Assembly: GCA_947630285.1 (NCBI GenBank)
Contig: CANRHD010000014.1
Coordinates: forward strand, 1-60,326
DNA length: 60,326 nt
Source of the DNA: an uncultured Clostridia bacterium
GTDB lineage: Bacteria; Bacillota; Clostridia; Oscillospirales; Acutalibacteraceae
Direction: 5' to 3'
Shown here: piece after piece, positions 2,426 through 20,600 of the stretch
Layout: each line of letters starts with the position of its first letter
How positions within the stretch are numbered: position 1 is the stretch's first letter
The notes under the pieces: model-generated
Told to the model about the DNA's origin: nothing
Database searches by the model: none
The model's input: the letters and a program-made list of their open reading frames with translations, nothing else
Translations under genes and position numbers: made by a program

Positions 2426-3369
2426 CGCCTTTCACTTCCTCTCTCATCGTTTTTATTAGGCAGAAAAAAATCCGCACTTTTGTGCGGAGCATTGTTTGCA
2501 GCAAACTGTAAATCTTCATTCCAATCTTTAAGTTTAGGAACAAGAATTTCGTATTCTATACCAAGTGCGAAAAGCTTGGTACTGATTTTATTTGCCGCAG
2601 TCTGTCCAGGATCGTCACTATCGAAACATATATAAACTTTTTTAATACATGGGTTATCTTTAAGGCATTGAAAAAGCACCCTGTCCGAAACGGAGCAGGA
2701 TGCTGCATAACTGTGATTTTTCCAATTTGTTTTGTGCATAGATATGAAGCTAAGCATATCAATCGGCGCTTCAAAAAGGTATATTTTATTGCTTGAACCA
2801 AACCAATGGAAACTGTATTCAGGCTGACTGTTTGAAGTATTTCCCTTAAATGTACTTCCTTTGCCGATTCCTCGCTTGTTGGCGTGTCGGGGAACGCCGT
2901 TTTTATCAAAGCCTACAAATACCGCATTGTGGTAATCCGCCGATTCGTAAATCAAACCTTTATCTTCAAAGGCTTGATACACATCTTCGTCAATTCCTCT
3001 TGTTTGTAAAAGATAGGCTTTAACCCTTGAATTGTTTTTATTCGTCGGCGGTAATTTAAACGGCTTTACTTCCTTAACAACATGCGGAGAAGTTTTAATT
3101 GTACCGCCAATGTTACCGAGCAAATACTCAACTGCTTCGGGATAGGATTTGTTACAGAACCTGCGGACAAAATCAATTGCGTCACCGCCGACCCGTTCAT
3201 ATTGATGATACCACAAGTTACCTCTGATCGTTATTTTCTGCGAGCCGTCTTTCCATTCCCACTCTTTACCGGAGCGTTTCAAAATTTCGCCCTGACTGCG
3301 AAGAAGTTCAACAAGGTCTGTTCTACGGGCTTGTTCTTTTTGCTCATTAGAAAATCGTATAAATGACAT
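2404..3369 (-). CDS. Toprim domain primase-like protein (DUF3991/Toprim type)
   Basis: A 321-residue protein probably involved in priming or nucleic-acid processing of the transferred strand. The N-terminal half has the DUF3991-like pattern (GGDAIDFVRRF near 61-71). The C-terminal half has a Toprim fold: the conserved Glu in YLFEAPIDML near 200 and the DxD in CFDSDDPG near 250-252. A zinc-finger CHC2 motif is not evident, so it is a shortened primase-like protein rather than a full DnaG. A strong AAGGAG site precedes the ATG. It overlaps virD4 by 22 bp. Confidence 0.82.
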   Translation of the reverse strand: MSFIRFSNEQKEQARRTDLVELLRSQGEILKRSGKEWEWKDGSQKITIRGNLWYHQYERVGGDAIDFVRRFCNKSYPEAVEYLLGNIGGTIKTSPHVVKEVKPFKLPPTNKNNSRVKAYLLQTRGIDEDVYQAFEDKGLIYESADYHNAVFVGFDKNGVPRHANKRGIGKGSTFKGNTSNSQPEYSFHWFGSSNKIYLFEAPIDMLSFISMHKTNWKNHSYAASCSVSDRVLFQCLKDNPCIKKVYICFDSDDPGQTAANKISTKLFALGIEYEILVPKLKDWNEDLQFAANNAPHKSADFFLPNKNDERGSERRCQALSI

Positions 3370-3468
3370 TTTATCCTCTCCTTAAAATTTTTGTAAAATT
3401 TTTCAACTTTTTGTCACATTTTCGTCTTTTTAGCTGTTGTATGTATATGAAGGGGTTAAATATATTGT

Positions 3469-4377
3469 TTATAGGCTAAAGAACATCTTGTTTCTCGGGT
3501 GTTTTGACTCTAATATTTCACGGGTTTTACCTGTGCTTATGTGCGTGTAAATCTGCGTGGTCGCAATGGAGCTGTGCCCGAGAAATTGCTGAATATACCG
3601 TATATCAACATCTTCGTTGTGAAGTTCGGTTGCAAATGTGTGCCTGAACATATGCGGTGTAATGTGCAACGGCGCACCGACAGCCTTCGCATAATCATTC
3701 ACCATATACCGTATGGACTGCTCGGACAAGCGATTGCCCAATCTGTTTACAAGCAAATAGTTCAAATTGTATGAGCGAACGGACAGGTAATTGTTTATCA
3801 TCTTGCTCAAATCATTGCTTATGCACATAATGCGCTCCTTTGAGCCCTTGCCGAATATACGGATTGTGTTATCCCCGAGATTTATTGCTGAGATTTTTAA
3901 ATTTGACACCTCAGATACCCTCATACCTGTTGAAAACAGCAATTCAAGGACAACTATATTGTGTAAGGTTACTTCCTTTTGAAATGCGGTAAGCGATACG
4001 GAATATTGCTTGTAGGCGTAAGCGAGCATATCCTGAATACAGCTTAGCGGTATTGTCCTCGGCAGTTTAATAGGCTCTTTGTATTTGAGAATGATTTTAT
4101 GAAACGGGTTGAAATCAATAATGTCCTCAATCTCCATATATCTGTAAAAGGCTTTAACGCAGGCAATCTTTCGCTTGGCGCTTTTGGGCTTGTACCGGCT
4201 GTGCAGAATATTGATATATGAATTGAGCTCGTTTTTATCAAAGCAGTCACGCCCGTTCATAAAGATGCAAAACTGCTTTAAATCGATTTTGTAAGCCTTG
4301 AGAGTTAAATCGCTCAAACCTTTAAGCGACTTGCAGGCAATTAAATATTTATCTTTTTCTTCACTTAAATTAAACAT
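3469..4377 (-). CDS. Tyrosine recombinase (XerD-like)
   Basis: A 302-residue site-specific recombinase. All catalytic positions are visible: Arg in TGMRVSE (about 153), Lys in GKGSKER (about 180), HMFRH (His 242 and Arg 245), His in LGHSS (268) and the nucleophile Tyr in QIYTH (277). The open frame extends 40 codons upstream, but I chose the ATG at 4,377 because it has GGAGGA seven bases ahead and gives the family's normal length. The gene lies between the primase and an inverted-repeat-flanked two-gene cassette. It could be the ICE integrase, but its position next to the repeats suggests it acts on the cassette. A hairpin overlaps its ribosome-binding site. Confidence 0.9.
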   Translation of the reverse strand: MFNLSEEKDKYLIACKSLKGLSDLTLKAYKIDLKQFCIFMNGRDCFDKNELNSYINILHSRYKPKSAKRKIACVKAFYRYMEIEDIIDFNPFHKIILKYKEPIKLPRTIPLSCIQDMLAYAYKQYSVSLTAFQKEVTLHNIVVLELLFSTGMRVSEVSNLKISAINLGDNTIRIFGKGSKERIMCISNDLSKMINNYLSVRSYNLNYLLVNRLGNRLSEQSIRYMVNDYAKAVGAPLHITPHMFRHTFATELHNEDVDIRYIQQFLGHSSIATTQIYTHISTGKTREILESKHPRNKMFFSL

Positions 4378-4385
4378 AAAAAATC

Positions 4386-4417
4386 CTCCGTGTAATGATA
4401 CAAACATTATGACGGAG
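4386..4417 (-). promoter_or_regulatory. Hairpin covering the recombinase ribosome-binding site
   Basis: On the minus-strand RNA, arms at 4,417-4,412 and 4,391-4,386 (6 bp) and at 4,409-4,405 and 4,397-4,393 (5 bp) form one stem. The outer 3' arm runs into the GGAGGA that serves the ATG at 4,377. Translation of the recombinase could be held down by this fold. The same dyad could instead be a protein-binding operator. Confidence 0.5.
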
Positions 4418-4558
4418 AATGTTAAAAAAGTCGATTGAAAATGATAAATTTTTGCAAAAAGTGTGCAATTTTGTCGCTTTTTTATGCTTTTTTGCATTTG
4501 GGGTTGTTTTATTTAGCATTATGTGCTATTTAAAAATAGAAAGATTATATTTTATGTG

Positions 4559-4605
4559 AAGGATAATAAGAAATTATTTTATAATAACTATTTATTATTG
4601 TAAGA
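4559..4605 (+). repeat. Left 47-bp inverted repeat of cargo cassette
   Basis: A sequence identical, in reverse complement, to 6,355-6,401 over 47 bases. It ends 17 bp before the methyltransferase start and contains a TATAAT at 4,580-4,585 that could serve as a -10 box. It also has partial internal dyad symmetry (ATAATAA near one end, TTATTAT near the other), as recombinase core sites often do. No clear target-site duplication is visible outside it. Confidence 0.9.
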
Positions 4606-4622
4606 AAAAATTATGGTGAAAT

Positions 4623-5345
4623 ATGAGCAATATAGATCTCGAACAAGTAAAACAATTATATAATAAGATGGATAACATATGGCCACTAGATGATAAATGG
4701 TATATGCACACATATAAAGAAATATCACTGTATTTAAAGGAATTTGAAAAAGCGCATAATATCAACTCAAATACATTGATACTAAATGCTGGATCTGCTG
4801 GGAATACATATGGCATTTTAGGAAAACATTTTCATATTGATATTTCCGAAAAGCACTTACTTAATATTCCAAATTCGACGGTTGGTAATATAGAAGAAAT
4901 GCCTTTTGACGACTCGTCCTTCGATGTATGTATTTGCGTTGGCTCGGTAATAAATTACTGTGATGCTATGTGCTCTTTAGGTGAAATATATCGTGTATTA
5001 AAGCCTAAAGGACTTTTAGTTCTTGATTACGATCAAAGCAAGAGTTTCGAGTTTATTGGTACATCATACTATTCTAAAAGTGCTGAAATAATTGAAACAT
5101 TTAACAGTGGACACACCGACAAAACTTGGATATACTCAGAAGAATACATTACTTCTATATTAAAATCTTGTCATTTTATTATACAAAAAACGCATCATTA
5201 TCATTGTATTTCACCACTTGCATATCGTTTCCTAAAAGACGAAACCAAAGCAAGTAAATATGCTACTTGGGATAAACTGTTCTCTAAGCTTCCCATCTTA
5301 AAAAATATATCTTGTAATATTATTTTAACTGCTCAAAAAACTTAG
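4623..5345 (+). CDS. SAM-dependent methyltransferase, class I
   Basis: A 240-residue Rossmann-fold methyltransferase. The SAM loop is LILNAGSAGN (about 52-61), an unusual variant of the common DxGxG pattern. An acidic position is at HIDIS (71-75). The core continues with PFDDSSFDVCICVGSVINY (94-112) and VLKPKGLLVLDYD (125-137), as in Methyltransf_11-type enzymes. The substrate cannot be told. It is one of the few plus-strand genes in the ICE. It converges on the GNAT-like gene and is A+T-rich. The ribosome-binding site is weak (GGTGA close to the ATG). Confidence 0.82.
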   Translation: MSNIDLEQVKQLYNKMDNIWPLDDKWYMHTYKEISLYLKEFEKAHNINSNTLILNAGSAGNTYGILGKHFHIDISEKHLLNIPNSTVGNIEEMPFDDSSFDVCICVGSVINYCDAMCSLGEIYRVLKPKGLLVLDYDQSKSFEFIGTSYYSKSAEIIETFNSGHTDKTWIYSEEYITSILKSCHFIIQKTHHYHCISPLAYRFLKDETKASKYATWDKLFSKLPILKNISCNIILTAQKT

Positions 5346-6333
5346 AAATAAGAGGTATTCTCACGAGCAGTTTCATAGCTTTCTCTTCTGAAAATGCCAA
5401 AAAAGATAGCCATACAAATATCATTACTACAAAAATTACTAATGCTATTATTAATTCGATATTCATTTTTTTAACTGCTAATATTACCCCTAACACGATT
5501 AAAGAAAATATTACAACAAAGAATAGTGCTTGCCATAGTTTTTTATTAATCGTACTTTCGTTTGGTATAATTTTATCCTCGGCCGACATTTTTTTGAAGG
5601 GATATCCATTTAATATGATTTCAGATTCGGAGACTGCGGAAACTATCTTTTCGTAATTTTCGGTTAGCTTTTTATAATTCTCTCCTTTATCAACTTCGTT
5701 ACGAAAAAAATTACAGTCCCATTCATGATAATAGTCAAAATAAATAGATTTAACTATGTCACAATAAGATTCTTTACTAATTGTATTTGATGAATAATTC
5801 CTTTGATATATCATCAATATGGCTTCCTGCTGACTATCAAAATTGTTTTGCTCTAAACAAGGTTGAATATATAACTGATTTACAACTTTGAAACCTTCAA
5901 GTTCGAATTTGGATATCTCTTCAATCGAAACAGTACCTGTGTTTTTCGTTAAAATCTCTATTCCAATATAATCGTAGTCTAGTTTAATAGAATTGAAATA
6001 TTCTATTATTAGCATAAAAAAACTATAAAAAGCACTATGTGTTTTGTATTTTGAATCAATAATAATATAATCTATAGCTATATAGCGTGTCTTCTTTATA
6101 AATGCTAGTTCTGCATAACCGATAATTTTATTGTTCAATTCAAGTCCAAAAAAGTATGGTTGAGAACTCCTAAATTCACTTTGATGCTCGACAGTCCAAA
6201 CTATTTCATTAATACTCGTCTTTTCATTGCGTGATACCGATCTTCTGTACACATCTAATACTTCTATAAATTTTTCGTCAGTATTACTTGAGAATAATTT
6301 TAATGAATATGTTAATTTGAGATTTGCTGACAT
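5320..6333 (-). CDS. GNAT-like N-acetyltransferase with two C-terminal membrane helices
   Basis: A 337-residue protein. Residues about 20-160 resemble a GNAT fold: a strand pair in YFFGLELNNKIIGYAEL, then RYIAIDYIIIDSKYK and a helix, where acetyl-CoA would bind. No clean R/Q-x-x-G-x-G/A loop is visible, so activity is uncertain. Two hydrophobic helices follow at about 267-287 and 291-313, then a short basic tail. A strong GGAGGA supports this start. The gene converges on the methyltransferase with a 26-bp overlap, and its upstream region is the right inverted repeat. A GNAT domain with a membrane anchor is uncommon; the role may be defence or surface modification, but that is only a guess. 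Confidence 0.6.
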   Translation of the reverse strand: MSANLKLTYSLKLFSSNTDEKFIEVLDVYRRSVSRNEKTSINEIVWTVEHQSEFRSSQPYFFGLELNNKIIGYAELAFIKKTRYIAIDYIIIDSKYKTHSAFYSFFMLIIEYFNSIKLDYDYIGIEILTKNTGTVSIEEISKFELEGFKVVNQLYIQPCLEQNNFDSQQEAILMIYQRNYSSNTISKESYCDIVKSIYFDYYHEWDCNFFRNEVDKGENYKKLTENYEKIVSAVSESEIILNGYPFKKMSAEDKIIPNESTINKKLWQALFFVVIFSLIVLGVILAVKKMNIELIIALVIFVVMIFVWLSFLAFSEEKAMKLLVRIPLISKFFEQLK

Positions 6334-6354
6334 GGTGCTCCTCCGGGACTTTCA

Positions 6355-6401
6355 TCTTACAATAATAAATAGTTATTATAAAATAATTTCTTATTATCCT
6401 T
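6355..6401 (-). repeat. Right 47-bp inverted repeat of cargo cassette
   Basis: This is the exact reverse complement of 4,559-4,605. It lies 21 bp upstream of the GNAT-like gene start, so both cassette genes begin just inside identical repeats. The bases immediately outside differ from those at the left copy. Confidence 0.9.
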
Positions 6402-6470
6402 TATTTAATAAAATGACTAAATTCAAAATCATATAAGCAAAAGACAAATATTGAAATGATATTCAAAGTT

Positions 6471-6499
6471 AAAGCCCACAGAACCATTCTGCAGGCTTT
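6471..6499 (-). terminator. Hairpin after the relaxase gene
   Basis: AAAGCC (6,471-6,476) pairs with GGCTTT (6,494-6,499), and CAGAA pairs with TTCTG inside, with one internal mismatch pair. It lies just past the relaxase stop on the minus strand. The T-tract that follows is weak, so termination may be partial, and the GNAT-like gene could receive read-through. Confidence 0.45.
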
Positions 6500-6503
6500 A
6501 GTT

Positions 6504-8690
6504 TTATCCCTGTTTGAGACCGTGGGATTGTTTTTTCTCGTCGATCTTCTTGCGGAGTTTGCGGTCGGTCAAGTGCGTTTTGCCTTTGCGTTCATCTTCC
6601 AAGCGGTTTTGGATCACACGGCTGATATGACCGAGCAGGCGGAGCGAACCGAGAGTAGCCGACCAACTGCGGTTTAATTTTATGCTATGCAATAGCTGAT
6701 TCGCATACTGATTGCCGTGTTCGGCTGAAACGGTAAGGTATGCTATTGCCTTGTCATAGTCACGCTCAATTTCTTTGCCATAAAGATAAAGCTTGCCGAG
6801 TTGGTATTCTGCAAAATCATTTCCGTTTTCAGCGGCAGTTTCAAAGTTTCGGATTGCTTTTGATATATTTTTTACTGAGTCCTCGGTTAACTGTATTTTT
6901 CCTGCAAGGTAAGCGGCATAAGGATTGTTCTGCCTTGCCGCTTTTTCAAGATATTTTATCGCTTTATTCAAATCCTGCGGTATGATTTCACCCTTGTATA
7001 ACAACTTGCCGAGTAAATACTGTGCAGGAGATAAGCCATTGTCCGCCGATTCGGCAATTAAACTTATTGCTTCGGGAATGTTTTGCAAAAACAATTCACC
7101 GTCAAGGTATGCTTTGCCGAGTGTGTATTTTGCATACTTGTTTCCCTGTGCAGATGACTTTCGGAGTAAATCTTCCGCACGAATTAAATCTTGTTCTGCA
7201 TCTTCGCCTTTAAGATAAGTTTTTCCGAGCAGATATTCTGCAAATTCATTGCCCTCGCTGACCGATTCTTCAAGCCACCGCATAGCATAATCCACATTCT
7301 TAGAAACATCTTCACCCTGCAAAAACATTTTGCCGAGTCTGTACTTAGCCACACCGTATCCTAAATTTGCAGATTTAATCAATAGTTCAACAGCAGTATT
7401 GGGATTGTAAAGTCTATTTTCTCTGTTGAGATGCTCTTTGGCTCGACTGTAATATTCCCACATTAAAGATGTTTTTTCTTTATCTGTAAGCGTAGGTTCT
7501 GTTTCATCATCGCTCGGTTCGTAATCAAATTCTAAATGTTCATCTGCATTTTCTTCATCTTCAATAATTGTATGACCGGCAATAATATTCATCGCTTCCC
7601 CGATAACAGCATTTTTAATCGACTTGAATTCTTTGTTTTGTGACAGAGGAACACGCTCCGGCAGTTCGTCTGTATAGGTTTTAATGACGGATTCTCGCTG
7701 TTCATACCATAAGTCATATAATGCAGATATTCGTTCATCGGATGCAAGTTCATCTACAATCAAATCAATAATTGCTTTGACATCTGATTTCAGATAACCG
7801 TAAACTTTTTTACCTGATGTCTTAGACAATCTATCAGCAAGATTTAAAAGCATTTCATTAAGTTTAGGATTATCATATATACCGCTGTTGATCTTTGAAA
7901 TAATTTCCGCAATGACCTCACGGCTGTTTACTTTCAACTCGTCACGGTATTCGGTTTGCTTTTCATATGCGCAGAGTAAATCCTGAGCAAAAATATCTTT
8001 AGCAAATGCAGAACGCAGATTCATTACACCTTGTTTCGATAAATATGCCTGCTTTTCTTCTGTGGAATAAACCATCAGATGTACATGAGGATGATGGCTT
8101 TCATTGTGAAACGCCGCATACCATCTCAGATTCTGCATCGGGATATGAAAGTTTTCGGATATTAAACTTGTCTGCGAACGGAGCATATCTCTCCAGCGTT
8201 CGCCTTTATTAAAACCTAAGCGCTCTGCATCTTCACGCCGAAGAGATATGATAACTGTCCATACATTGCCGCTATACTGATTTAAGTTTTTCGATACCTC
8301 ATTCAGTTTTATCTGTAAGCCGTCATCGGAAAACAGACCGTGCGTACCAAACCTCTGCGCCCTCGGACGGGTTGCAATATAGTCAGCATAGGTTTTTGTC
8401 TGCATAACTTCATAGGCGTTATCTTCCATTGTGCGTGTAATAAATTCAGAGGCATTACCTACAGTCGGATTATTTAGATAGTCCTCATATTCCAAACCGT
8501 TTTTGCTGTCAGGAAAATCCGCAAGTATTTTTTGAATTAACTCCTTTTGTTTTTTGGTGGCAGGCGCAAATTTAAAGGAGTCATCTATTTTATCAACGCC
8601 CTCACGGGTGGCAATATATTTTGCATAACCGCCGATAATATTTCTGTCATTGGGTTTCAAATATTTGAATTTTGTAATCAGCTTTGCCAT
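6504..8690 (-). CDS. MobL/MobP-type conjugative relaxase with Sel1 repeats
   Basis: A 728-residue relaxase expected to nick at oriT and stay bound to the 5' end. The metal-binding histidines are at 199-204 (SHHPHVHLMVY). The N-terminal region (KYIATREGV, YIATRPRAQR) is typical of MobP/MobL relaxases in Clostridia. A middle linker is followed by about seven Sel1-like repeats (roughly 430-690; recurring YRLGKMFLQGE, YLLGKTYLKGE and similar), which usually serve protein contacts. The gene follows the MobC-like gene with a 3-bp gap. Confidence 0.9.
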   Translation of the reverse strand: MAKLITKFKYLKPNDRNIIGGYAKYIATREGVDKIDDSFKFAPATKKQKELIQKILADFPDSKNGLEYEDYLNNPTVGNASEFITRTMEDNAYEVMQTKTYADYIATRPRAQRFGTHGLFSDDGLQIKLNEVSKNLNQYSGNVWTVIISLRREDAERLGFNKGERWRDMLRSQTSLISENFHIPMQNLRWYAAFHNESHHPHVHLMVYSTEEKQAYLSKQGVMNLRSAFAKDIFAQDLLCAYEKQTEYRDELKVNSREVIAEIISKINSGIYDNPKLNEMLLNLADRLSKTSGKKVYGYLKSDVKAIIDLIVDELASDERISALYDLWYEQRESVIKTYTDELPERVPLSQNKEFKSIKNAVIGEAMNIIAGHTIIEDEENADEHLEFDYEPSDDETEPTLTDKEKTSLMWEYYSRAKEHLNRENRLYNPNTAVELLIKSANLGYGVAKYRLGKMFLQGEDVSKNVDYAMRWLEESVSEGNEFAEYLLGKTYLKGEDAEQDLIRAEDLLRKSSAQGNKYAKYTLGKAYLDGELFLQNIPEAISLIAESADNGLSPAQYLLGKLLYKGEIIPQDLNKAIKYLEKAARQNNPYAAYLAGKIQLTEDSVKNISKAIRNFETAAENGNDFAEYQLGKLYLYGKEIERDYDKAIAYLTVSAEHGNQYANQLLHSIKLNRSWSATLGSLRLLGHISRVIQNRLEDERKGKTHLTDRKLRKKIDEKKQSHGLKQG

Positions 8691-8693
8691 AAG

Positions 8694-9101
8694 TTATTCT
8701 TTCTGCCAGTCAAGTGCATCTTCAAAAGAGAAAGAGCCGTTAAGCCGTTTCACTTCTTTTACACATTCACCTTTGAGCCGTTCCAAGGATAAAGGATCAA
8801 TATCATTCGTCGCCGCAACAAGATTTTGCATAATAGCAATCTCAACCGCAAGTTTAAATAACATTTTACTGTGTCGGTTATCGCTCTCTGAAACAATGCT
8901 TTTCATGTTGGAGAGAAATGCATTTGGAAGATATGAGGTATCCTCATCAACCGTAACACGACCTGCATAATACTGAATGGCCCGTTCGATAAATTCCGAT
9001 TGACTTTTACATTTATCTTTTCTGTAATTGTTTTTTACAAGCTCCAATGTGCTTGGATATGCCCATAAAAGAAACTTTTTCTTATCTTTTGGTGCAGACA
9101 T
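8694..9101 (-). CDS. MobC-like relaxosome accessory protein
   Basis: About 135 residues. The N-terminal part (FLLWAYPSTLELVKNNYRKD, then SQSEFIERAIQYY) has the pattern of a ribbon-helix-helix DNA-binding protein. Its place directly before the relaxase gene and next to a non-coding stretch suggests it binds oriT with the relaxase. The open frame begins at 9,128, but the ATG pair at 9,104/9,101 lies just after GAAGGTG and is the more likely start. Confidence 0.68.
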   Translation of the reverse strand: MSAPKDKKKFLLWAYPSTLELVKNNYRKDKCKSQSEFIERAIQYYAGRVTVDEDTSYLPNAFLSNMKSIVSESDNRHSKMLFKLAVEIAIMQNLVAATNDIDPLSLERLKGECVKEVKRLNGSFSFEDALDWQKE

Positions 9102-9128
9102 CATTTCACCTTCGTTTAAATTTTGCAA

Positions 9129-9459
9129 CCGCTGTCAATCCGGCGTAAACACGGCGAATTTCTGCGTTACAACCGATATGATTTAGCTTTAACATATTTC
9201 AACCCACTATATAAATGCAAGGGCAAAACCGCCGAAAACGCCCACACGGTCGGCGTTGCCGTCCGATGTGAACCGAGGGGGGGAGCATTAGCAACCCACC
9301 TCATTTTCTCCTGCTTAATTTTCGACCCTGTAATATCTGTGAAACAACTGATTCATATTCTCAATATTTGCCGAAAATCGCCTGAATTTTGCCGCCTTGC
9401 TCTCGGTGGGTAAACTTTGACCTTGTCCGTAAAATCGTCACACAGTGCGACACGGCGGC
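9129..9459. other. Non-coding region, candidate origin of transfer
   Basis: No convincing gene lies in these 331 bp, placed between the MobC-like gene and the DUF6103 gene. It is richer in G+C than its surroundings and holds several dyads. AACGCC (9,237-9,242) pairs with GGCGTT (9,252-9,257), and the flanking GGC and GCC can extend this. A near-palindrome GTCACAC-A-GTGCGAC lies around 9,437-9,451. A run of seven to eight G is near 9,276. Position beside the mobilisation genes is the main reason to call it oriT; I do not recognise a nic sequence. Confidence 0.4.
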
Positions 9460-9690
9460 TCATGGGCGGTTGAAATGCTTTTCGGATTTACCCGACTTCG
9501 AATCTGTTATATAGCTTTCTGATTTCATAGATATGAACTTGCGAACGCCTGACGGAACAGTTTTGTTAAACAAAGTATCAAGCATTTTTACAATCTCATC
9601 ATCAAAATTTGAGCCTTTTTGTTCAAGATATAGTTTTGTTGCACTCAATTTTTCTTCATCATATGAAATATTGATTATTGCTTTCTTCAA
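9460..9690 (-). CDS. DUF6103-like small ICE protein
   Basis: A 76-residue conserved ICE protein of unknown function. The N-terminus reads KKAIINISYDEEKLSATKLY and the middle contains KTVPSGVRKFI, both of which I recognise from DUF6103 proteins that accompany relaxase modules in Clostridia. The open frame extends far upstream only because it shadows the neighbouring gene in another frame. I place the start at a TTG (9,690) following GAGGTGTCAGG, 10 bp after the upstream stop codon. The N-terminal stretch may be a ribbon-helix-helix strand. The tail is basic. Confidence 0.65.
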   Translation of the reverse strand: MKKAIINISYDEEKLSATKLYLEQKGSNFDDEIVKMLDTLFNKTVPSGVRKFISMKSESYITDSKSGKSEKHFNRP

Positions 9691-9700
9691 ACCTGACACC

Positions 9701-10774
9701 TCACATAGAAATATTTTCGCCGAATACTTCTGCCAACCATTCTTTCTCGTCATAATTGCAATTGCGCATATCCGTAGAATTAAGATCCATATCGCCAAAC
9801 TCGGTTTTGTCAATACAACAGTTTTGAAGACTGCCTTTATGCATTGTACAGTCATAAAATTCAGTGCCTGTAAAATCACTGTGCGTAAATATTGCAAGGT
9901 CAAAGCTACAGGCAATACACTCGGCATTTTTGAATTCGCATTCTTCTGCAGTAATATCTTCGCAATTACAATTCTGAAATTTTGTACCGTTAAAAGAAGC
10001 AAAGCAGACTTCCGCTTTGCTCAAATTGGTATTCACAAATTTTGCGCCGTCAAATATGGCATTGATTAAATTCTTACCCGATAAATTCATATCCTTAACC
10101 AAGCAGTTTGAAAAGTCAGCCTGTTCGCCGCTCATATCGTAAAGCCATAAAATATGTTTTGCACACATTATTTCAATTTCTTCAGAGGATAGCAAACGCA
10201 AATTTTTTTCATCATCGGGTCTTTGATATTGTTCGGATATTGTAACGGTACAACCGTCATCAAAAAATTCAACATCTTGAATTTCGTCTCTGTCGGATAG
10301 CATATCCATAAATAAATCTTCATTGAATCCGCTGCGCTCACATACAATCTTAACCTCGTCAAAATCAATTCTGTACTTACATTCAAGCTGACCGAGAAGT
10401 GCTTTCTGTACATAATTGTCTGCAAGACTGCGCATCTCGTCCGCAAAAGTATTCAGTGACGGATACCGCATCTGATTTATAACACTTCTTGCATTAGGAA
10501 TAAAAGCAGAGTATCGGGCGTATGCGCTGCCCTCAGATTCAACTATAACACCATCCTCTCGATTTTTGCCCAACACCAGCAAGCAATGATTTAAACCGTT
10601 TTTATCCTGATACATACAGTCGGTATTTTCAAGGATAAAATCATAATCATTCAAAAGATTCTTTGAAAAATGCTCAAAGCAATCTGAGGAAAGCTCAACA
10701 GTTTTCTCTATCACACAGGGATTTGTTTCAATTTCCGTATCTTTTCTACGGAACGGTACATTTATTATTTTCAT
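9701..10774 (-). CDS. Pentapeptide-repeat protein (DUF6329-like N-terminus)
   Basis: A 357-residue protein. Residues about 1-210 form a conserved ICE domain with no obvious catalytic motif. From about 225 onward come pentapeptide repeats of the A(D/N)LxX kind (for example LINAIFDGAKFVNTNLSKAE), which fold into a right-handed quadrilateral helix. Proteins of this type recur beside NlpC/P60 and relaxase genes in clostridial ICEs; their role is unknown. The start overlaps the stop of the NlpC/P60 gene by 4 bp (ATGA), so they are probably translated together. Confidence 0.68.
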   Translation of the reverse strand: MKIINVPFRRKDTEIETNPCVIEKTVELSSDCFEHFSKNLLNDYDFILENTDCMYQDKNGLNHCLLVLGKNREDGVIVESEGSAYARYSAFIPNARSVINQMRYPSLNTFADEMRSLADNYVQKALLGQLECKYRIDFDEVKIVCERSGFNEDLFMDMLSDRDEIQDVEFFDDGCTVTISEQYQRPDDEKNLRLLSSEEIEIMCAKHILWLYDMSGEQADFSNCLVKDMNLSGKNLINAIFDGAKFVNTNLSKAEVCFASFNGTKFQNCNCEDITAEECEFKNAECIACSFDLAIFTHSDFTGTEFYDCTMHKGSLQNCCIDKTEFGDMDLNSTDMRNCNYDEKEWLAEVFGENISM

Positions 10775-11811
10775 GAGGTTTTTTCCTTGCTTTCTTCAAT
10801 ATATTTAATATACGGAATTTTCAGCCAGTGCGTCCATCTTCCGTTTTTAAGTTTTGTTTTCACAACGCCGTACTGCGTACCCATTGCTTCAACAACTTCG
10901 CCGTTTCCCGTATATATGCCAATGTGACCTTCATGCCAAACAGCGAGACCGGGGATTTCGGGAATGGTATCTATCGTGCCCTTTTCAGACGCCGCCTGAA
11001 ACATTCCGTTTGCGGTAACATCCTGCATACCGTTTGAGCCGACATTGATTTTTCCGCTTTGGGTATCATACCAGCCGTAGCCTTTGATTAACCCAACACA
11101 GTCGGCGGTTCGTTTGCCGAGCCAGTTAGCTCTGATAAATTCATCATAGTCGGTAACATGACTTCCGAATACGGATTCAAGCCGCTCAAGCTCAGCCTCG
11201 TCAAGAAGTTTTCCGTGCGAACCCCAAACATAGCCCCAACCTGACTCTTGGGCGTGCATTGCCCACTTTACCAAATCGATATTGTTTTTTGTTGAAAGAT
11301 CAGTATAATCGGAAGTGTCAATATATAAAGAGCGAATATTGCCCATGACATTGCTAAAATCTTCGGAAGTAAGCTGTGTACCGAATGCCGAATTAACAGA
11401 GTAGACTAACTGTTCATCTGTTTGGTTTTCAGAAAAACAAGAGACAAGCTTATCGACAAAATTAGGACTAAAGGAATAATCATAAAGCGCAAGTACATAC
11501 AGCACCTGCGCTTCTTTTACTCTGCCGTTAAAGCCTGCCGATTTCATTTTATCGTCAATGCTGTTCATAGTATCTTCGACAAATCGAAGCTTAACTTTTT
11601 CTTCTGCGGATAAATTTTGAACGACCATTGTCTGCAAGCGGTCCGTGTCAATATTAATATCGCTGTTAAACATACCGATAACCGCAACAATGGGCATAAC
11701 GATTATGATAATAATTCCAAGCACTATACCACCGATTATTTTTAATGCTTTTTTATCTGTTAGGATATATACAGCAAATTTTTTTAGGGCTGCACTTATG
11801 GCGGCAGACAT
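10771..11811 (-). CDS. NlpC/P60 peptidoglycan hydrolase of the conjugation apparatus
   Basis: A 346-residue membrane-anchored wall hydrolase that should open peptidoglycan for the transfer channel, in the role of VirB1. One membrane helix spans about 24-47. The C-terminal NlpC/P60 domain carries the nucleophile Cys in TADCVGL (238) and the His in HEGHIGIY (296). The middle region (about 75-170) resembles the lysozyme-adjacent part of related CwlT-like proteins, but I see no clear lysozyme catalytic motif. It overlaps virB4 by one base (TAATG). Confidence 0.87.
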   Translation of the reverse strand: MSAAISAALKKFAVYILTDKKALKIIGGIVLGIIIIIVMPIVAVIGMFNSDINIDTDRLQTMVVQNLSAEEKVKLRFVEDTMNSIDDKMKSAGFNGRVKEAQVLYVLALYDYSFSPNFVDKLVSCFSENQTDEQLVYSVNSAFGTQLTSEDFSNVMGNIRSLYIDTSDYTDLSTKNNIDLVKWAMHAQESGWGYVWGSHGKLLDEAELERLESVFGSHVTDYDEFIRANWLGKRTADCVGLIKGYGWYDTQSGKINVGSNGMQDVTANGMFQAASEKGTIDTIPEIPGLAVWHEGHIGIYTGNGEVVEAMGTQYGVVKTKLKNGRWTHWLKIPYIKYIEESKEKTS

Positions 11812-13646
11812 TAACGACCACCCGCTTTTCCAAACAATGCGGATTTATATTCGGGAGCAAAGACCTGCAATAAATATCTTTCGTTTCCGCAACGGTATAG
11901 GCAAGTACCCCGTTCGGGATATTTTATAAGTTCAAATTCAGACGGCTCAACCTGTAAGGCGTCCATATATTCTTTGGGATTGATCTGTCCGGCGTTGAAT
12001 AAGAACTGATGCGTCGGAATAGAAAATAACGGTTTTGTAAACTCTCGAATTGAAGGTATTAAAAAATCCTCAATATTCTGACTTGCCAGAATGATTGAGG
12101 AATCTTTTTTACGCACCCGCTTCATAGCGTTGCGGATATATTCAATTGCCGTCATGTTCGTAAGGAAGAGATACAGCTCATCTATTGATGCCGCCGTGTT
12201 GCCTTTGCCGAGAAGCTGGTTTGACATAAATGAGAGAATGTTAAACAGCATAGCGTCTTTTAAGCGCTTGTTCGTATCCAATAAGCCTTTCACGCCGAAC
12301 ACAAGAAATGCGTCATCGGTGATATTGGTGTGGCCGTTGAAATACTTACTTTCCGCACCTACGCACATGGAGTGAATACCGAGGCACACCTCTTGGAGTG
12401 TTTCTTCTGTATACAGATATTTTTGCCTGCTGTCATAGGTCATAAATTCTTCTTCGCACAGGTTATAGAAATCCTCCATAACAGGATAATCAGCCGGCTT
12501 CAGCTTGCTGTAATCAGTACTGTCGGTAATGCCGAACCGGTCATACAGCTTGGAAAGCAAAATTTCAATCGTATCAATCTGTGTATCGGAAAAATCCTTG
12601 TAGCTTCGGAAAAAATCTTTTAAAAATGCAATATGCTGTGAAAGTCTTGTCACTTTCTTAAATGCCGCAGGGCAGGCGGTATCATCGCTGTCATCACCGC
12701 CCACGCCGAAAGACTTGGGTTCTAAAGGATTGATCGTGTATTTGCCCGACATAAAGTCAATATAACAGCCGCCGAGTGCATTCGTCAGTTCTTCGTATTC
12801 CGACTCCGGATCAAGGCAGATAATGCTTTTACCTGATTCACGAATGTTGGTTAGTATCAGTTTTAGCAGATAACTTTTGCCCTGACCGCTGTTACCTAAA
12901 ATGAGGATATTGCTTGTGGTTTTATCTTCTGCTCGGCGGTCGAAGTCTACAAGGATATTTGTGCCGAATTTATCTCTGCCGATATATATTCCCTGAGGGT
13001 CGGTCTTACCCGAAAAATTAAAAGGATACAAGTTTGCTACCGAGCTTGCCGGTAACACCCGTTCATACTGAGCACCGAACTGATTTGCGCCCACGGGCAG
13101 AACAGAGAGGAAGCCCTCTTTCTGACGGAGAGTTAAACGGTCTACCGAAATTTTGGAGCGTGTAAGTTCCATTGCGATTTCGCTCTGCAATTCTTTAAGT
13201 GCGTCCATATTCTTTGCCTTTAATTCAATAAATACGGAGCAGTGGAGTAGAGGCTCTTTGTTCTTTCTGAGATTTGCAAGCAGTTCCACTACATCTTGAA
13301 GATTACCCTCGGCTTCAATCGTTTCGTTTACATCGTTACCGCCTGATTTCAGCTTGTTCCTGCGTGTGGCATTTTGAATAATTTTTCTCTGTTCCATACT
13401 TTCCACCAAGCGGTGATAAATGCGAAGTGTAACGCCGCTTCTGTCGCCGAGCTGAGATAAAATTGCCTGTTCCTCGGTGGTAGGTGGATATTCTCTTATA
13501 GCCCAAACACAGCGGTAACTGTCACCAACGATATAATGGTCTGAAAAGAATTTGACAGTGCCGGGCAGTATCATATCAAAAAAATCTTTAGTACGAATTT
13601 CCTCGGCCTGTTCGGGCGTTAATATTTTCGGTTTTTTCTTTATCAT
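11811..13646 (-). CDS. VirB4-type conjugal transfer ATPase
   Basis: A 611-residue ATPase powering the type IV secretion channel. Walker A is GNSGQGKS at 251-258. SIICLDPESEYEEL follows, as in VirB4/TraC proteins, and DELYLFLTN (about 490) and ILASQNIEDFL mark the C-terminal ATPase core. The N-terminal half is the usual VirB4 domain. Four-base ATGA overlap with the upstream gene and one-base overlap with the downstream one indicate a tight operon. Confidence 0.95.
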   Translation of the reverse strand: MIKKKPKILTPEQAEEIRTKDFFDMILPGTVKFFSDHYIVGDSYRCVWAIREYPPTTEEQAILSQLGDRSGVTLRIYHRLVESMEQRKIIQNATRRNKLKSGGNDVNETIEAEGNLQDVVELLANLRKNKEPLLHCSVFIELKAKNMDALKELQSEIAMELTRSKISVDRLTLRQKEGFLSVLPVGANQFGAQYERVLPASSVANLYPFNFSGKTDPQGIYIGRDKFGTNILVDFDRRAEDKTTSNILILGNSGQGKSYLLKLILTNIRESGKSIICLDPESEYEELTNALGGCYIDFMSGKYTINPLEPKSFGVGGDDSDDTACPAAFKKVTRLSQHIAFLKDFFRSYKDFSDTQIDTIEILLSKLYDRFGITDSTDYSKLKPADYPVMEDFYNLCEEEFMTYDSRQKYLYTEETLQEVCLGIHSMCVGAESKYFNGHTNITDDAFLVFGVKGLLDTNKRLKDAMLFNILSFMSNQLLGKGNTAASIDELYLFLTNMTAIEYIRNAMKRVRKKDSSIILASQNIEDFLIPSIREFTKPLFSIPTHQFLFNAGQINPKEYMDALQVEPSEFELIKYPERGTCLYRCGNERYLLQVFAPEYKSALFGKAGGR

Positions 13647-14248
13647 TCACTTTCACCATCCTTATTAAAATCAAAAAACTGTTCGCCGTCTGCATCAGGC
13701 ATCTGTTCGCCGTTCATACTCGCTTCAAAATACAGCGCCAGAAAACGCTTTATTTCATTTTCTTTCATACGGTGCGTTTCAAAGCCCTGTTCGGATATGA
13801 CTTTCTCGATGCGGTTAGCGGTGTCAAAGGTTTGCTTATCCTTTGTGTTTTTTAGTCTTGCGACAAACAAAAACTGCCTTGCCGTTGCCATTTCCATCTG
13901 AATGTGGTCAAGGAAATCAATATCCTTTTTAATAATCTTTCTTACTTTTGGGTTGTATTCTTCGGATAATCTTTTCTGCAAATATGCTTTGTTATCGTCA
14001 AAGCATTCCGAAGAATCTGTACAGGTAATTTCAATATCGGGAATTGAGGACAAAATCATCATCAGATGTCTTATTTTAATCTCGACATTCGTGCGAGACA
14101 GCACCGAGATATTGGTCGGAGATACAAGATAAAACAAAAGCTCGCCTTTGTTTGTAGCGAGTCCGTACTTTGTAAATGTTTTAACGCCGATAAGCTCCTG
14201 CACCGAGCGTCCCTTTTTCCTTTTCTGTTGTTTTTCTTTTATTGGCAA
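13643..14248 (-). CDS. Conserved conjugation-operon protein, unknown function
   Basis: A 201-residue soluble protein. It starts with a very basic tail (KEKQQKRKKGR), then has a region reading FYLVSPTNISVLS and a charged helical second half, with no catalytic motif. The start is a TTG preceded by GGAGGTGA with good spacing. It sits between the VirB3-like and VirB4 genes and overlaps the latter by 4 bp. In this ICE family a protein of this size at this place looks like a partner or split-off N-terminal part of VirB4. That role is inferred from context only. Confidence 0.6.
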   Translation of the reverse strand: MPIKEKQQKRKKGRSVQELIGVKTFTKYGLATNKGELLFYLVSPTNISVLSRTNVEIKIRHLMMILSSIPDIEITCTDSSECFDDNKAYLQKRLSEEYNPKVRKIIKKDIDFLDHIQMEMATARQFLFVARLKNTKDKQTFDTANRIEKVISEQGFETHRMKENEIKRFLALYFEASMNGEQMPDADGEQFFDFNKDGESE

Positions 14249-14616: not shown

Positions 14617-15504
14617 TTATATCATTTCATATGCAGGACAAATAATCAAACTCAACCTTGCCGAAATATATTTTTTATAAAATTCCTTTTGCAAATCGGA
14701 GATATATGGAACGCTGTCAATAAACGCTTTAATCTCATTTATATTGATTTGCTCATAAATATGTTTTACCGCTTTATTGCAGTCCTCATATTCAGCGTTT
14801 AAAAGAAAATCATAATAGTTTATTTTATTACCGTGCAGTTTTATTGCAGAAGTCGGGAATCTGTAAATCCGCAGATTCAGTGTTTCCTTATCATTTAACA
14901 CCGCCTGCATTACCGAATCGTCCGCTTGCGGCAATAAACAACTTCCGCAGTCATATACAGGAGCAATCTCACGCTTTTTCGTTTTCGGATCATATATAAA
15001 TCCCCAGTTTCCATTGTGACGGTCAAAGTTTCCGAGCAAGGCGTCCGCAACAAACATATTCCAGAAATGCTCTTTCAAAACAATCGGATCAACATACTGC
15101 TGTTTTTCAATGGTTTCCAAAATATCCTCAAGCTCCGTACCGCTTCCGTTTGAATCAGAATCCAAAACAGTATTTTTTATGGAGCAAAAATCATAAAACT
15201 GCTTGCCGTCTTCTGTAAAATCAAGACAAGCGCAGACTACCTTTTCTTTGCCGTTTACGATAAAAGTACCGAGCATGGTTTCCTGTGCCTTTATGCCGAG
15301 CATATTGAAAATACTGCTTGCAATGTGCTCGCTGATACAGCTGTTTGTATTGGACAGTTCAGTCGGCTTTCCGTTACCCGACGGCGGAAACTTCAGCATA
15401 TATGTTCTGCCGTCATACTCAACTGCTATTTTCTTCCCGTTTGCACCGTTAAATGCTCTGTCAAGCACACGCGGACAATTTGTAAAATCTATTTTTTTGT
15501 TCAT
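14617..15504 (-). CDS. HipA/CtkA-like protein kinase
   Basis: About 295 residues. Kinase features of the HipA superfamily, CtkA branch, are visible. The catalytic loop is ALLGNFDRHNGNW (near 157-169) with the Asp and Asn. The metal-binding Asp is in APVYDCGS (about 185). Upstream, SNTNSCISEHIAS occupies the place where HipA proteins bind nucleotide or autophosphorylate. I chose the ATG at 15,504 because AAAGGAG lies seven bases ahead; another ATG at 15,522 overlaps the HTH gene's stop. Paired with the upstream XRE protein it forms a HipBA-type unit, likely a toxin-antitoxin or regulatory kinase module that stabilises the ICE. Confidence 0.8.
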   Translation of the reverse strand: MNKKIDFTNCPRVLDRAFNGANGKKIAVEYDGRTYMLKFPPSGNGKPTELSNTNSCISEHIASSIFNMLGIKAQETMLGTFIVNGKEKVVCACLDFTEDGKQFYDFCSIKNTVLDSDSNGSGTELEDILETIEKQQYVDPIVLKEHFWNMFVADALLGNFDRHNGNWGFIYDPKTKKREIAPVYDCGSCLLPQADDSVMQAVLNDKETLNLRIYRFPTSAIKLHGNKINYYDFLLNAEYEDCNKAVKHIYEQININEIKAFIDSVPYISDLQKEFYKKYISARLSLIICPAYEMI

Positions 15505-15518
15505 ATCCGAACTCCTTT

Positions 15519-15932
15519 TCATAAATATTTTTGACGCAGATAATCGGCATGTTCCGGTGTGATTGCGCCGTCATTGATGACCGCTATGTTGATACTGCCG
15601 TACAACTCGCCCCAAAGGCAGTCAAGAATGGGAGATTTGTTTTTAAGACCGTCTTTGTATGCGTCCAGATCATGCTGTAGATATGCAGGCAAACCGTATT
15701 CATATGACTTTTCCCGTTCTGTTTCTCTGATGCCGCTTTCAATAAGCATTTCCATTGATACGCCAAGAGCGCCGGCCAATTTATATACCGTTTCGGCGGA
15801 ACATTTTTCAAGCTTAGTTTTTCCGCTGCAAATATCGTTAAGCGTGGCATGAGGGATACCGGCATCAACAGCCAATCTGTATTTAGTCATATTTCTCTTT
15901 TTGAGCAAACTATCTATAATCATACGATACAC
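15519..15932 (-). CDS. XRE-family HTH protein, HipB-like partner
   Basis: A 137-residue protein. An XRE helix-turn-helix occupies about residues 5-65 (MTKYRLAVDAGIPHATLNDICSG-type pattern, then AETVYKLAGALGVSMEMLI). A C-terminal extension ends in AITPEHADYLRQKYL. It is directly upstream of the HipA-like kinase and should neutralise or repress it. A dyad overlapping its own promoter suggests autoregulation. The pair is inserted between the VirB6-like and VirB3-like genes of the transfer operon. Confidence 0.82.
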   Translation of the reverse strand: MYRMIIDSLLKKRNMTKYRLAVDAGIPHATLNDICSGKTKLEKCSAETVYKLAGALGVSMEMLIESGIRETEREKSYEYGLPAYLQHDLDAYKDGLKNKSPILDCLWGELYGSINIAVINDGAITPEHADYLRQKYL

Positions 15933-17323: not shown

Positions 17324-17661
17324 AGGGTATTTCCTCCGATCTTTTTTGTTATTTCATTGTCCGTAATCCTGCGGATACGAATATTAAGATTTTTGCAAAA
17401 CTGTATTTCGGCTCTCATACCTTCGGTTTCTTCATTGCCGAAAATCCACATTTCATCACAGAACCATAAAAGGCTTAGACCTGCCGACATACCGATTTCA
17501 CGCTCTTTAGGTATGATGTCATTCAGGCAGAGCGCATAAAAATGCGGTACGACCGGAGCCGTACCGCACAACAATGCAAACCTTGCATATTGCTTAACTT
17601 TTTTAAGATTTTCTTTGACATCACCGCCGAGAGGAGCGCAAATATATACCTTACGCATCAT
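17320..17661 (-). CDS. DUF4406/nucleoside deoxyribosyltransferase-like protein
   Basis: A 113-residue protein starting KVYICAPLGGDVKEN, typical of DUF4406 and related nucleoside 2-deoxyribosyltransferase-like folds. The middle reads VVPHFYALCLND and the later part DEMWIFGNEETEGMRAEI, where the family has an Asp and a nucleotide-contacting Glu. Its role in an ICE is unknown. The start overlaps the stop of the surface-protein gene (ATGATG), so the two are translationally coupled. Confidence 0.72.
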   Translation of the reverse strand: MMRKVYICAPLGGDVKENLKKVKQYARFALLCGTAPVVPHFYALCLNDIIPKEREIGMSAGLSLLWFCDEMWIFGNEETEGMRAEIQFCKNLNIRIRRITDNEITKKIGGNTL

Positions 17662-20600
17662 TCGCTGTCATCGTCCTTTTTCTTCTTGAAACAGATAACG
17701 GCGGCGGAAACAAGACCGCCTAAGGCGACAGCTCCCAATCCGAACCAAAAGCCGAGATTTCTGTCATCACCTGTTTGGGGAATCTTAGGCATCAGTGAAA
17801 TGAGTTTTACGGTTTGACCGTCATCGTTAATATCTGCATGCACCGCTATTTCAACAGTATCATGATAAAGCGTTTCAAATACAACAAGCTGCGTATCAGC
17901 CTTTATATACTTTGCATCAAAGTTAAATGAAACGGTTACCTCGCCGCCGCTTTTTTCGGAGATGAATGCGGCCTCGCTTGTAACAGGCTTTGCGTCAATC
18001 TCAAACGGCTTTCCTGTGGATTTATCCATAAGAACGCCCTTGATTGTATATTCCTTGCCGGGTGTAAGGTTGGTGAATTTTATTTTATCGACAATGGTGA
18101 TATTACCCTTAGCGGTCGCTTCTTTTTTACCGTTTGCTTTTGCTGTTGTATGAATTTCAGGCACTTTCACAGTTACGGTCTGACCCTTATCGTCAATATC
18201 AGCGTGCACGGCAAGCTGTTTTGAATTCTTGCAAAGAGTTTCAAAAACTACAATATCCGTATCAGCCTTAATATATTTACTGTCAAATACAAATTCAACT
18301 GCTGCCGTTCCGCTCGGCTCTGTCGGAATAAAGTTGGTTTCTGCTGTTACGGTTTCGCCGTTTATAACAAGTTCCTTGCCTGTGCTTTTATCCATTAACA
18401 CGCCCTTGAGCGTGTATTCCTTATTCGGTATAAGGTGTTCGTACTCAACCGTATCGGTTAATGTGAATACCTCTGTTGCACATATTTCTTTTTCACCGTC
18501 AACAGCGGCAGTCGTTTTTAGTTCGGGTATTCTATCGTTAACTGCCGTGATTTCAATTATCTGTTCATTGTCGGTAACTGTGATATGGTGAATATCCTCG
18601 CTTGATAAATAATTTTCGGCAGGTTGTAATTCCTTGACTATCCACTCGCCGAACGGAATATTTTCAAATACAAAAATGCCGTCCTTATCTGTTTTGGCAG
18701 TAAGAATGGCATTGCCTTTTATATATTCTGTTTCATCGGCATTGAAAAGTCCGAATATAGCGCCATCTATGGTTTCTTCGGTTTCACGGTCAATCTTTAT
18801 GCCCTTAATCGTACCGTAAATAAGGTCATTTTCTATAGGCTCACCGTCATTTAGATTGATTTCGTAAATATCAATATCCTGTCCTTTGTATTCGGTTTCA
18901 AACTCATACTTTTTATCGGAAAGGATATAATGCTCATCTGTTGCTATCTCTTTTACATAAAACTTATAACCGATTGGCAAATCACAGTTGAATGTGAGAT
19001 TGCCGTTTTCATTACAATTACCATAAGTGATTAACGCATCTTCAGGAATAATAGAACCATTGGCCGCAGAGATATTTTCACCGGCATATATGCCAAACTG
19101 AACAGATAAAATTTCATTATTCATTCCGAATTTAAATATATTATCCTGAGATAATTCCTTTAACAGCGAAACAGATACTTTCTGTCTGTGGTTGAATACG
19201 GAAAGCGCCGTTGAGGTAATTTTAACATCCTGACCTGCGTAGGTTAATTCAACATCGTACTGCTTATCAGCATTTACATATCCGTTCGGAGAAGTCTTTT
19301 CGATTACTGTATATCTGCCAAGATACAATTCTTTTGATTTTGCAATTCCTTTGCCGTCAGTTGTAATTTCATCAACAAGCTCGCCCTTGTAGGCTCTGAC
19401 TGTTCCGTCAAGGGTAGTTATATCTTCGGCGGCATAGATTTGGAATACTGCATTTGCAAGAGTCCCTTTTTCATATCTCGGTGAATAGGTTACAGGAAAC
19501 GCAATGTCGTTTCCGTTTTCGTCAGTATATCCGCCGCCGAGCATTCCGACGGATGAGAAAACATCTCCCTCTTTGGTAATCTCAATTATACCTTTCTGCG
19601 CCATATCACTTGCCTTAACTTTTACAACGGTAACGCCTGTATCGGTTGAGCTGTTTTCCTGCGTTATTTTAAACGGAATAAGTGTGGAATCAAGCACATA
19701 ACCGTAGGGAGCTTTAACTTCCTTTAAGAAATAATTACCAAACGGTAATTTTTCAGGTGTAATAAGATAACCCTCTGAATTCGTATAAAAAGTGTGGATT
19801 TCAGTTACTTTTGGATAGGTGAACTGCATTGAAATTCTATGATTATTACTGTCATAAATTTCAAAAGCAGCGCCCTCATATGCAATCTGCTTGCCTGTTT
19901 CTTTATCAAGTTTTACTATTTTGAGATACGATTCAAAGTTAGCGTTGTTAATTAAAAACTTGTATTCTTTCATATCGGTGTCGATATACACTTCAAAGTC
20001 CTTAATCTTTTCTCTGCCGTTCCAGCCCTTAGTCTGATGCACGGTATATACGCCGTAAGGAAGCAATTTTGAGCTTGCAAAGCCGTCTTCATCACAAATA
20101 ACGGTATCACGCTCGTCCTTATCTGCCTTTGCAAAGGAGCCTGACGATTTTAGATAAATCTGAAATTCAGCGCCTTTTTCGGGAGTTTCAATTTGCGTTG
20201 AGCCGTCATCGGTGTGCTTAATAATTGCAATTTTACCCTTGATTACCTGCTCAATCACATTTTTTGATATACCGTTATATTCAATAGTATATATCTTTGG
20301 ATCAGCGCCAACCCTGTGCACTGTTTCATCTACAAGATAGCCTTCACTTGCGGTGATTTCTTTAATCGTCCAGTCATCGCCGCAGGCATAGTATTTTGTT
20401 GTAAACTGTCCGTTTGCGTCTGTGGAGTAAGTGTCTACAAGCTCGCCGCTCTTGTAAATACCGTAAACTGCGCCTGCAAGAGAAGCGTCACCCTGAGGAT
20501 TGCCTTTTTCCGAATCTCTTTTTGTAACGGTAACACGAAATTTTTTGAAAATATTCTCAAAGTTTTTGTTTGTTACCTTATTCCACTCAATGGTTGCTGT

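Follow-up and report, generated by a model that had tools for sequence, protein, structure and literature searches.

Most known inversion switches act on a promoter or on part of a gene. The phage Mu G segment and its kin are handled by the enhancer-dependent serine recombinases Gin, Cin and Min, and their cargo is tail-fibre genes. For tyrosine recombinases, the literature (PMC5903667 among it) describes the RecV switches of Clostridioides difficile and the PsrA-driven hsdS inversion of pneumococci, in which a promoter-type switch or parts of hsdS invert. Inverted Xer-type sites also bound the pdif modules, discrete gene modules found in different Acinetobacter plasmids; according to an excerpt of PMC6449649, a pdif site spans 28 bp, with two 11-bp arms around a 6-bp centre, and is bound by XerC and XerD. 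We examine here a two-gene cassette at positions 4559-6401 of a 60 326-nt stretch (the window; GCA_947630285.1, contig CANRHD010000014.1) from an uncultured Clostridia bacterium, which is enclosed by inverted repeats and lies next to a tyrosine recombinase gene.

Our best explanation of the whole, which we hold with good confidence, is an invertible and exchangeable two-gene cassette with an expression swap. The cassette would lie between two inverted recombination sites of the adjacent recombinase, which would pair both sites and invert it, as the geometry of the sites and contig breaks in relatives suggest. Each gene would depend on transcription entering from the flank that it faces, because both genes start close inside the sites, and inversion would swap the expressed partner, a methyltransferase or a GNAT-like protein. 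Where both signals for such a readout are visible in relatives, a promoter lies on one flank and a terminator on the other. In the longer term, the same sites are the places of gain, loss and exchange of cassettes.

The window locus and its core sites

The two ends of the cassette, at 4559-4605 (+) and 6355-6401 (-), are perfect 47-nt reverse complements, just as a sequence-only reading of the window had described them, and form the centre of a 59-nt inverted pair (92% identical), the longest listed within 3000-9000. A 45-nt repeat probe with at most three mismatches finds only these two sites in the window (none in 100 shuffles), and a 67-nt probe finds the same two sites and no others in the 2.03-Mb genome. 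The partial internal dyad symmetry that the same reading had seen in each repeat resolves into two elements: a 19-bp core (4561-4579 and 6381-6399), which is two positions off the consensus given below and makes up most of the outer part of the repeat, and a second, weaker core-like 19-mer 2 nt further inward (4582-4600 and 6360-6378, by eye), which makes up most of the remainder. The two cores share the spacer AAGAA, inverted, and a similar tandem layout is seen (by eye) in L088 (L, G and C numbers stand for loci, genomes and contigs throughout).

The repeats do enclose two convergent, A+T-rich genes: the open reading frames (ORFs) overlap by 26 nt, and the G+C content of the cassette is 29.7%, compared with 42.1% for the whole window. 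The recombinase-side partner (4623-5345, +) encodes an S-adenosylmethionine (SAM)-dependent methyltransferase (MTase), a label borne out by Methyltransf_11 (E 3.1e-10). The far-side partner (5320-6333, -) encodes a 337-aa protein that had been called a GNAT-like membrane protein. It scores 18.1 bits with Acetyltransf_1, under the cut-off of 20.7, but its relative in L151 (27.6% identity, E 2e-28) passes at 21.9 bits, so we keep the GNAT label; the membrane half of the name is a by-eye reading of a hydrophobic C-terminal part.

The recombinase gene (3469-4377, -) is complete, encoding 302 aa from a conserved start, 183 nt away from the left core, with an open frame that extends back to 4497 and a Phage_integrase match of E 8e-41. 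It had been described as XerD-like; we call it XerC/D-like, and the protein falls below both equivalog cut-offs (233.1 vs 335.15 bits for XerC and 219.8 vs 329.6 bits for XerD). The XerD cut-off may be strict for this group, because none of the five matches to that model in G000 passes. A C-terminal HPRN motif is invariant in 22 out of 22 rows of the recombinase family alignment; L139, however, reads HPRS.

The core has the consensus RGATAAY-N5-RTTATCY, a 19-bp palindrome with a 5-nt spacer. A scan of genome_contigs with the recombinase gave 14 relatives, and the DNA common to these is the recombinase gene plus ~200 bp upstream (conserved between positions of about -205 and +900). This block ends in the palindrome, or at a contig end inside it, in 12 of the 14 relatives, and the sequences beyond mostly differ; the exceptions are L044 and L047, which are alike beyond the palindrome, and L041 and L052, which are without it. 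The core also accompanies recombinases merely ~38-53% identical to that of the window, and is found at the 5' side of the recombinase gene in the closer clade and mostly at the 3' side in the more distant clade. Streptococcus cores are two positions off the consensus.

We assembled 45 recombinase loci: the window, the 14 from genome_contigs, 13 and 15 from further genome regions, and L086 and L090; L135 is closely related to L136, and L130 to L131. In 32 of the 45, a core with at most two mismatches is present within 420 bp of the recombinase (including L060, where the last base of the contig completes the core), and the contig ends inside the core in five others (L040, L051, L127, L129 and L134). 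Among loci with no core call, L058, L067 and L133 have a contig end at most 250 bp from the recombinase, and L135 has lost the core side, with an insertion sequence-like ORF in its place. The search for partner sites (at most two mismatches, within 9 kb) gave 25 further core-like matches, of which 13 have the same spacer inverted, none has it direct and 12 are unrelated; the number of spacer matches expected by chance is 0.1 given the real spacer composition (0.02 with equal bases). A relaxed partner search for 14 single cores gave no convincing partner. Spacers are identical within a cassette and differ between most loci, which fits the overlap region of a strand exchange. More core pairs are found in stretches without a recombinase or on plasmids and phage-like contigs (L041, L088, L089, L096, L142-L148, L151, L238 and L240).

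In L141 (G600 C4, 4707-5700), a recombinase frame with eight internal stops lies beside a perfect, unpaired core. L088 (G003 C11, 4429-9717) has a third core 1.6 kb past its cassette pair, near the contig end, which matches the core that ends the recombinase contig C34. A 126-kb phage-like contig, L153 (IMGVR_UViG_3300006204_000004, 7935-13706), carries a recombinase of the family (47% identity) and inverted cores at 9322 and 12675; the second core falls within a 554-aa ORF, which by eye looks like inversion of a tail protein at the same site type. A single-sequence recombinase search of viral_contigs gave no match.

Probable inversion, cassette exchange and a proposed readout

The sequence-only reading had suggested that inversion would change which gene faces which flank. 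This is still the best account of the paired sites, and it is likely that the cassette inverts: besides the 13 inverted and zero direct spacer matches, contig ends point to it, and the order of the pair varies between species. A whole or truncated core is present in 37 loci. In 14 of these, the contig breaks off within the core or no more than 54 bp beyond it towards the cassette; on the opposite side of the recombinase, none of the 37 contigs breaks off within 450 bp. For example, in G310 the cassette with both cores is on contig C10 and the distal flank is on contig C33. Read inward, the two ends of the cassette agree for 22 nt, and C33 stops after exactly 22 nt; read outward, the two flanks agree for 9 nt, and C10 begins 8 nt outside. 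Breakpoints matching the divergence points to 0-1 nt are the pattern that an assembler leaves when the sample holds both orientations. In another two genomes (G307 and G003), two contigs each end at the same core and the cassette between them is absent. Low coverage or short k-mers could, in principle, also break contigs at the core.

The search for the same two-gene unit elsewhere, which the earlier note had proposed, found the pair on three plasmids and in G300, each time between inverted cores. On the plasmids of Streptococcus salivarius SALI-10 and LAB813 (identical sequence) and of Aliarcobacter faecis, the convergent pair lies by a recombinase gene, and identities to the window proteins are 41-43% for the MTase and 27-28% for the GNAT-like protein (40-43% and 26-29% over three other cassettes). 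Among 72 556 plasmids, relatives of the MTase (E <=1e-25) or of the GNAT-like protein (E <=1e-5) are found in the same three records only, and the cassette DNA has no match in the plasmids. The GNAT-like protein has no match in genome_contigs and two weak matches, besides the window, in 300 family genomes. Because the pair recurs in two phyla, the two proteins probably serve one process. An MTase relative in G146 (L004/L239, 34%) was considered as another cassette and rejected, as there are no cores or recombinase in the 17 kb examined.

The MTase gene adjoins the recombinase in the window and in S. salivarius, and the GNAT-like gene does so in A. faecis. The A. faecis order is not a flip of one same arrangement, however, because there the recombinase faces the cassette with its 3' end, and in the window and S. 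salivarius with its 5' end. In cassettes pairing an ATP-grasp gene with a nucleoside triphosphatase (NTPase) gene, the former is beside the recombinase in L061, L063, L138 and L140, and the latter in L147.

Whole cassettes are seen to be gained, lost and exchanged at the cores; how this happens we infer. Closed Streptococcus plasmids that belong to a single replicon type (rep_cluster_199) carry three different cassettes between like flanks (L142/L146, L143 and L144/L145): they have in common the recombinase-side flank and ~200-280 bp of distal flank, and homology ends ~10-20 nt inside the cores. The closed Aliarcobacter plasmids L151 and L240 hold different cassettes between a recombinase side 97.8% identical and a distal flank 90% identical. 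In another example, the one-contig genome G413 has a single, empty core, at which the gut contig MT835475.1 holds a 2.1-kb cassette; the two sequences are 99.6% identical along 9.2 kb to one side of the core and 95% identical along 1.5 kb to the other. Compared with the empty site, the centre of one of the two filled sites is turned round, which simple circle integration does not explain; recombination of near-symmetric sites in the wrong alignment would explain it.

Start codons lie a median of 22 nt inside the core, and 28 out of 39 ends have the start within 40 nt (these ends, each with a clear inward start, were listed by hand; L145, L146, L238 and L240 are omitted altogether, L066 is omitted at both ends, and L050, L062, L090, L096 and L136 are each omitted at one end). 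Starts this near to the core leave little room for a promoter inside most listed ends; in Streptococcus and in L059 the inverted repeat takes in the ribosome-binding site. We scanned the flanks of 23 hand-listed cassettes (L145 and L146 were omitted as near-duplicates, and the left flank of L086 is too short, leaving 45 flanks). Inward terminator-like hairpins (threshold score 12, set before the result) are on 12 of the 45 flanks, where 0.94 are expected from shuffles that preserve single-base composition only, and they are confined to one flank in 10 of the 11 cassettes having any. Promoter matches with p<0.05 are on six of the 45 flanks (L066, L090, L136, L140, L088 and L096), with ~2 expected, and in five of these six cassettes the opposite flank carries a terminator. 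L096 and L140 belong to the same cassette family (75% and 61% identity), and the gene facing the promoter flank is the ATP-grasp gene in L096 and the NTPase gene in L140. In Streptococcus, the distal core has an extended -10 (TGGTATACT) 2 nt away, outside the scored range, and the flank concerned is not significant in the promoter scan.

The recombinase-side flank of the window has a conserved but weak TTG...TGCTATTTA element, a candidate outward promoter at 4504-4532 (+) that reads TTGTTT-N17-TATTTA with TG before the -10; its TTG is invariant in 15 aligned upstream regions, and the position reads TTGACA in L044, L047 and L053. The best promoter match on this flank is another hexamer pair (p 0.275). 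A possible promoter of the recombinase itself (TCGACT-N17-CATAAT, 4406-4434, -) comes from a consensus scan, and its TCGAC is conserved in the 15 aligned upstream regions. On the far side, a terminator-like hairpin behind the relaxase gene (6470-6500, -; score 20.5) reads towards the cassette and ends 70 nt outside the core; it is absent from the matches of a stricter scan. With the hairpin on the distal side and the TTG element on the recombinase side, the orientation seen in the assembly would be the one that expresses the MTase. For the cassettes in general, we lean towards the view that a flip selects the expressed gene.

Several observations weigh against an invertible cassette with swapped expression. 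The 45 loci are not independent (L040/L041, L043/L045, L046/L090, L052/L086 and L128/L129 share a genome). The core call found none in eight of the 45 (L041, L052, L056, L058, L067, L133, L135 and L137), the cores of two Aliarcobacter species are 3-4 positions off the consensus, and 10 of the 37 cores lack both a partner and a contig break. The pair in G300 (L238, C5, 6597-8356; MTase 39%, GNAT-like protein 27.6%) is between inverted cores, and the 16 kb examined contain no recombinase; this genome has two recombinase copies elsewhere. No near-identical cassette was found in both orientations (NU10/S. equinus and SALI-10/LAB813 are the same way round), and inversion is read from the site geometry and the contig breaks of relatives, not from a flip seen directly. 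Three loci are not simple convergent pairs: L066 has all genes one way, L050 has one gene and L090 is mixed. As for the readout, L062 has terminators on both flanks, the promoter excess given above is weak, neither flank of the window has a significant promoter (p 0.275 and 0.61), and a plain promoter scan of the window region gives no excess over shuffles. Finally, Thoeris, to which one cassette pair is related, is thought to need both genes, which fits strict either/or expression badly.

It could be, then, that the cores are there for capture and exchange, and that inversion is a side effect without a regulatory role, both genes being always expressed from both flanks. Such constant expression would suit gene pairs that are conserved as pairs (one of them Thoeris-like, with its supposed need for both genes) and cassettes that are exchanged between fixed flanks, and the promoter matches are too weak to rule out a promoter on either flank. 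It is unlikely all the same: in 10 of the 11 cassettes inward terminators are restricted to a single flank, terminators stand opposite five of the six significant promoter flanks, and the contig breaks at the core suggest mixed orientations.

An integron-like platform, where a single site captures circular cassettes to be read from a platform promoter, is very improbable. The sites at the cassette ends are inverted, not direct (13 vs 0), the paired loci hold one cassette per platform and no arrays, and the recombinase scores 99.5 bits with the integron-integrase model, whose cut-off is 265; these outweigh the variable cargo that begins just past the recombinase-linked site with a start codon near, and the unpaired, empty-looking sites that exist in L044, L047, L048 and L131.

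The sequence-only reading had named mobile cargo as its main alternative. That idea survives insofar as cassettes are exchanged at the cores, but a fixed transposon-like unit with long terminal inverted repeats, next to a recombinase that is the integrase of a conjugative element and unrelated to the repeats, is hardly credible. The recombinase does lie within a conjugative element (with TraG-like and MobP3 relaxase genes) and the cassette does differ in G+C content from the window (29.7% vs 42.1%); yet the core travels with the recombinase through different contexts, and with recombinases ~38-53% identical, spacers match within loci and vary between loci, and the cassette has no transposase-like gene. 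A simple promoter inverton was rejected, as the segment is coding and starts lie a median of 22 nt from the core.

Cargo of the cassettes and the surrounding element

Seven cassettes (L061, L063, L088, L096, L138, L140 and L147) encode an ATP-grasp-type protein with a predicted NTPase. Other pairs are a carbamoyltransferase with an AAA protein (L041 and L062), a serine hydroxymethyltransferase-like protein with a tetratricopeptide repeat (TPR) or AAA-TPR protein (L089 and L143), a radical SAM protein with a pentapeptide protein (L043), a polyprenyl synthase with a 330-aa protein (L142) and a spermidine-synthase-like protein with a 286-aa protein (L136); L059 has a pyruvyltransferase and a glycosyltransferase (labels by eye) with a TIR-like protein. 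Many of the NTPase labels and the TIR label of L059 are under curated cut-offs, the cargo of L062, L063 and L096 was labelled by BLAST to scanned relatives, and the 816-aa partner in L138 has no Pfam match and is tied to that of L088 by a weak BLAST match only. As we read it, the recurring theme is a small-molecule-type enzyme facing a sensor- or effector-type protein.

Some cargo resembles known defence genes. L148 (MT835475.1, 5586-7687) has a ThsA-like gene (E 2.7e-97) convergent with a gene for a TIR protein (PDC-S66 4e-13, ThsB 3e-7) between inverted cores, and L066 encodes a bSEFIR-like protein (E 2.6e-16). L086 (G310 C10, 49-6499) consists of two convergent operons, each starting with a radical-SAM gene (54% identity between these), apparently a switch between two versions of one pathway.

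The window pair compared with the PADLOC models gives only an E of 7e-4 to mad2 for the MTase and no match for the GNAT-like protein, and a PADLOC scan of an early set of ten proteins gave nothing strong. A role of the window pair in conflict or defence would be likely, because Thoeris-like, bSEFIR-like and NTPase cargo occurs in other cassettes. One may go further and imagine mobile immune or conflict cassettes that cross phyla and that the recombinase swaps and flips, such that sister cells express the enzyme or the sensor/effector partner and not both. We regard this as a long shot; if true, enzyme-on and receptor-on cells would divide the making and sensing of a signal, or would hold a costly system as two harmless halves until a flip.

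The cassette is flanked by TraG-like, Toprim and MobP3 relaxase genes and sits in a conjugative element. The element continues past the far side of the cassette with the relaxase gene (6504-8690, -; NCBIfam MobP3 E 6e-113, over the cut-off), which has Sel1 repeats in four stretches of the same ORF. A cluster of tRNA-Gln, tRNA-His and tRNA-Arg genes (28232-28541) lies close to where the conjugative element gives way to housekeeping genes and is perhaps the integration end. Also on the element, a HipA-like ORF is beside a helix-turn-helix ORF (14617-15932), by eye a HipA/HipB-type pair. The window further encodes a 1477-aa repetitive surface protein (17658-22091), in which pilin-like repeats and, at the C-terminus, a sorting-like signal are recognised by eye.

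Comparison with known systems

We found no description of such a system in the open-access PMC literature, the scope of which excludes subscription papers. A dedicated tyrosine recombinase here apparently flips whole convergent pairs, on a platform that accepts different pairs, including relatives of defence genes, and is found in Clostridia, Streptococcus and Campylobacterota. Phase variation and the exchange of gene cassettes are thereby linked. A recombinase with a C-terminal HPRN motif together with paired RGATAAY-N5-RTTATCY cores provides a search rule for new two-gene conflict systems, and closed plasmids in culturable oral streptococci make the system testable now.

The likeness to the Mu G segment is in alternative genes that lie between inverted sites and take turns at a fixed transcription start, but here the recombinase is of the XerC/D-like tyrosine type (Phage_integrase), the cargo consists of enzymes and NTPases, and cassettes are exchangeable. 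As in pdif modules (so far as the excerpt describes them), gene modules between inverted sites are exchanged between replicons, here Streptococcus and Aliarcobacter plasmids; what differs is the site, with a core of 19 bp and a spacer of 5 nt, and the dedicated recombinase beside it. The RecV and PsrA systems, in the cases described, share with our cassettes tyrosine-recombinase inversion between inverted repeats, whereas whole, unrelated, convergent genes that vary by locus are concerned here. Integrons also have a recombinase beside a site that receives variable genes; here, in contrast, the sites are inverted and paired, there is one cassette, and the recombinase is not IntI by model score (99.5 vs 265 bits). 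Thoeris and bSEFIR are related through cargo, as such genes are carried by sister cassettes (L148 and L066), although the window pair itself matches no defence model well.

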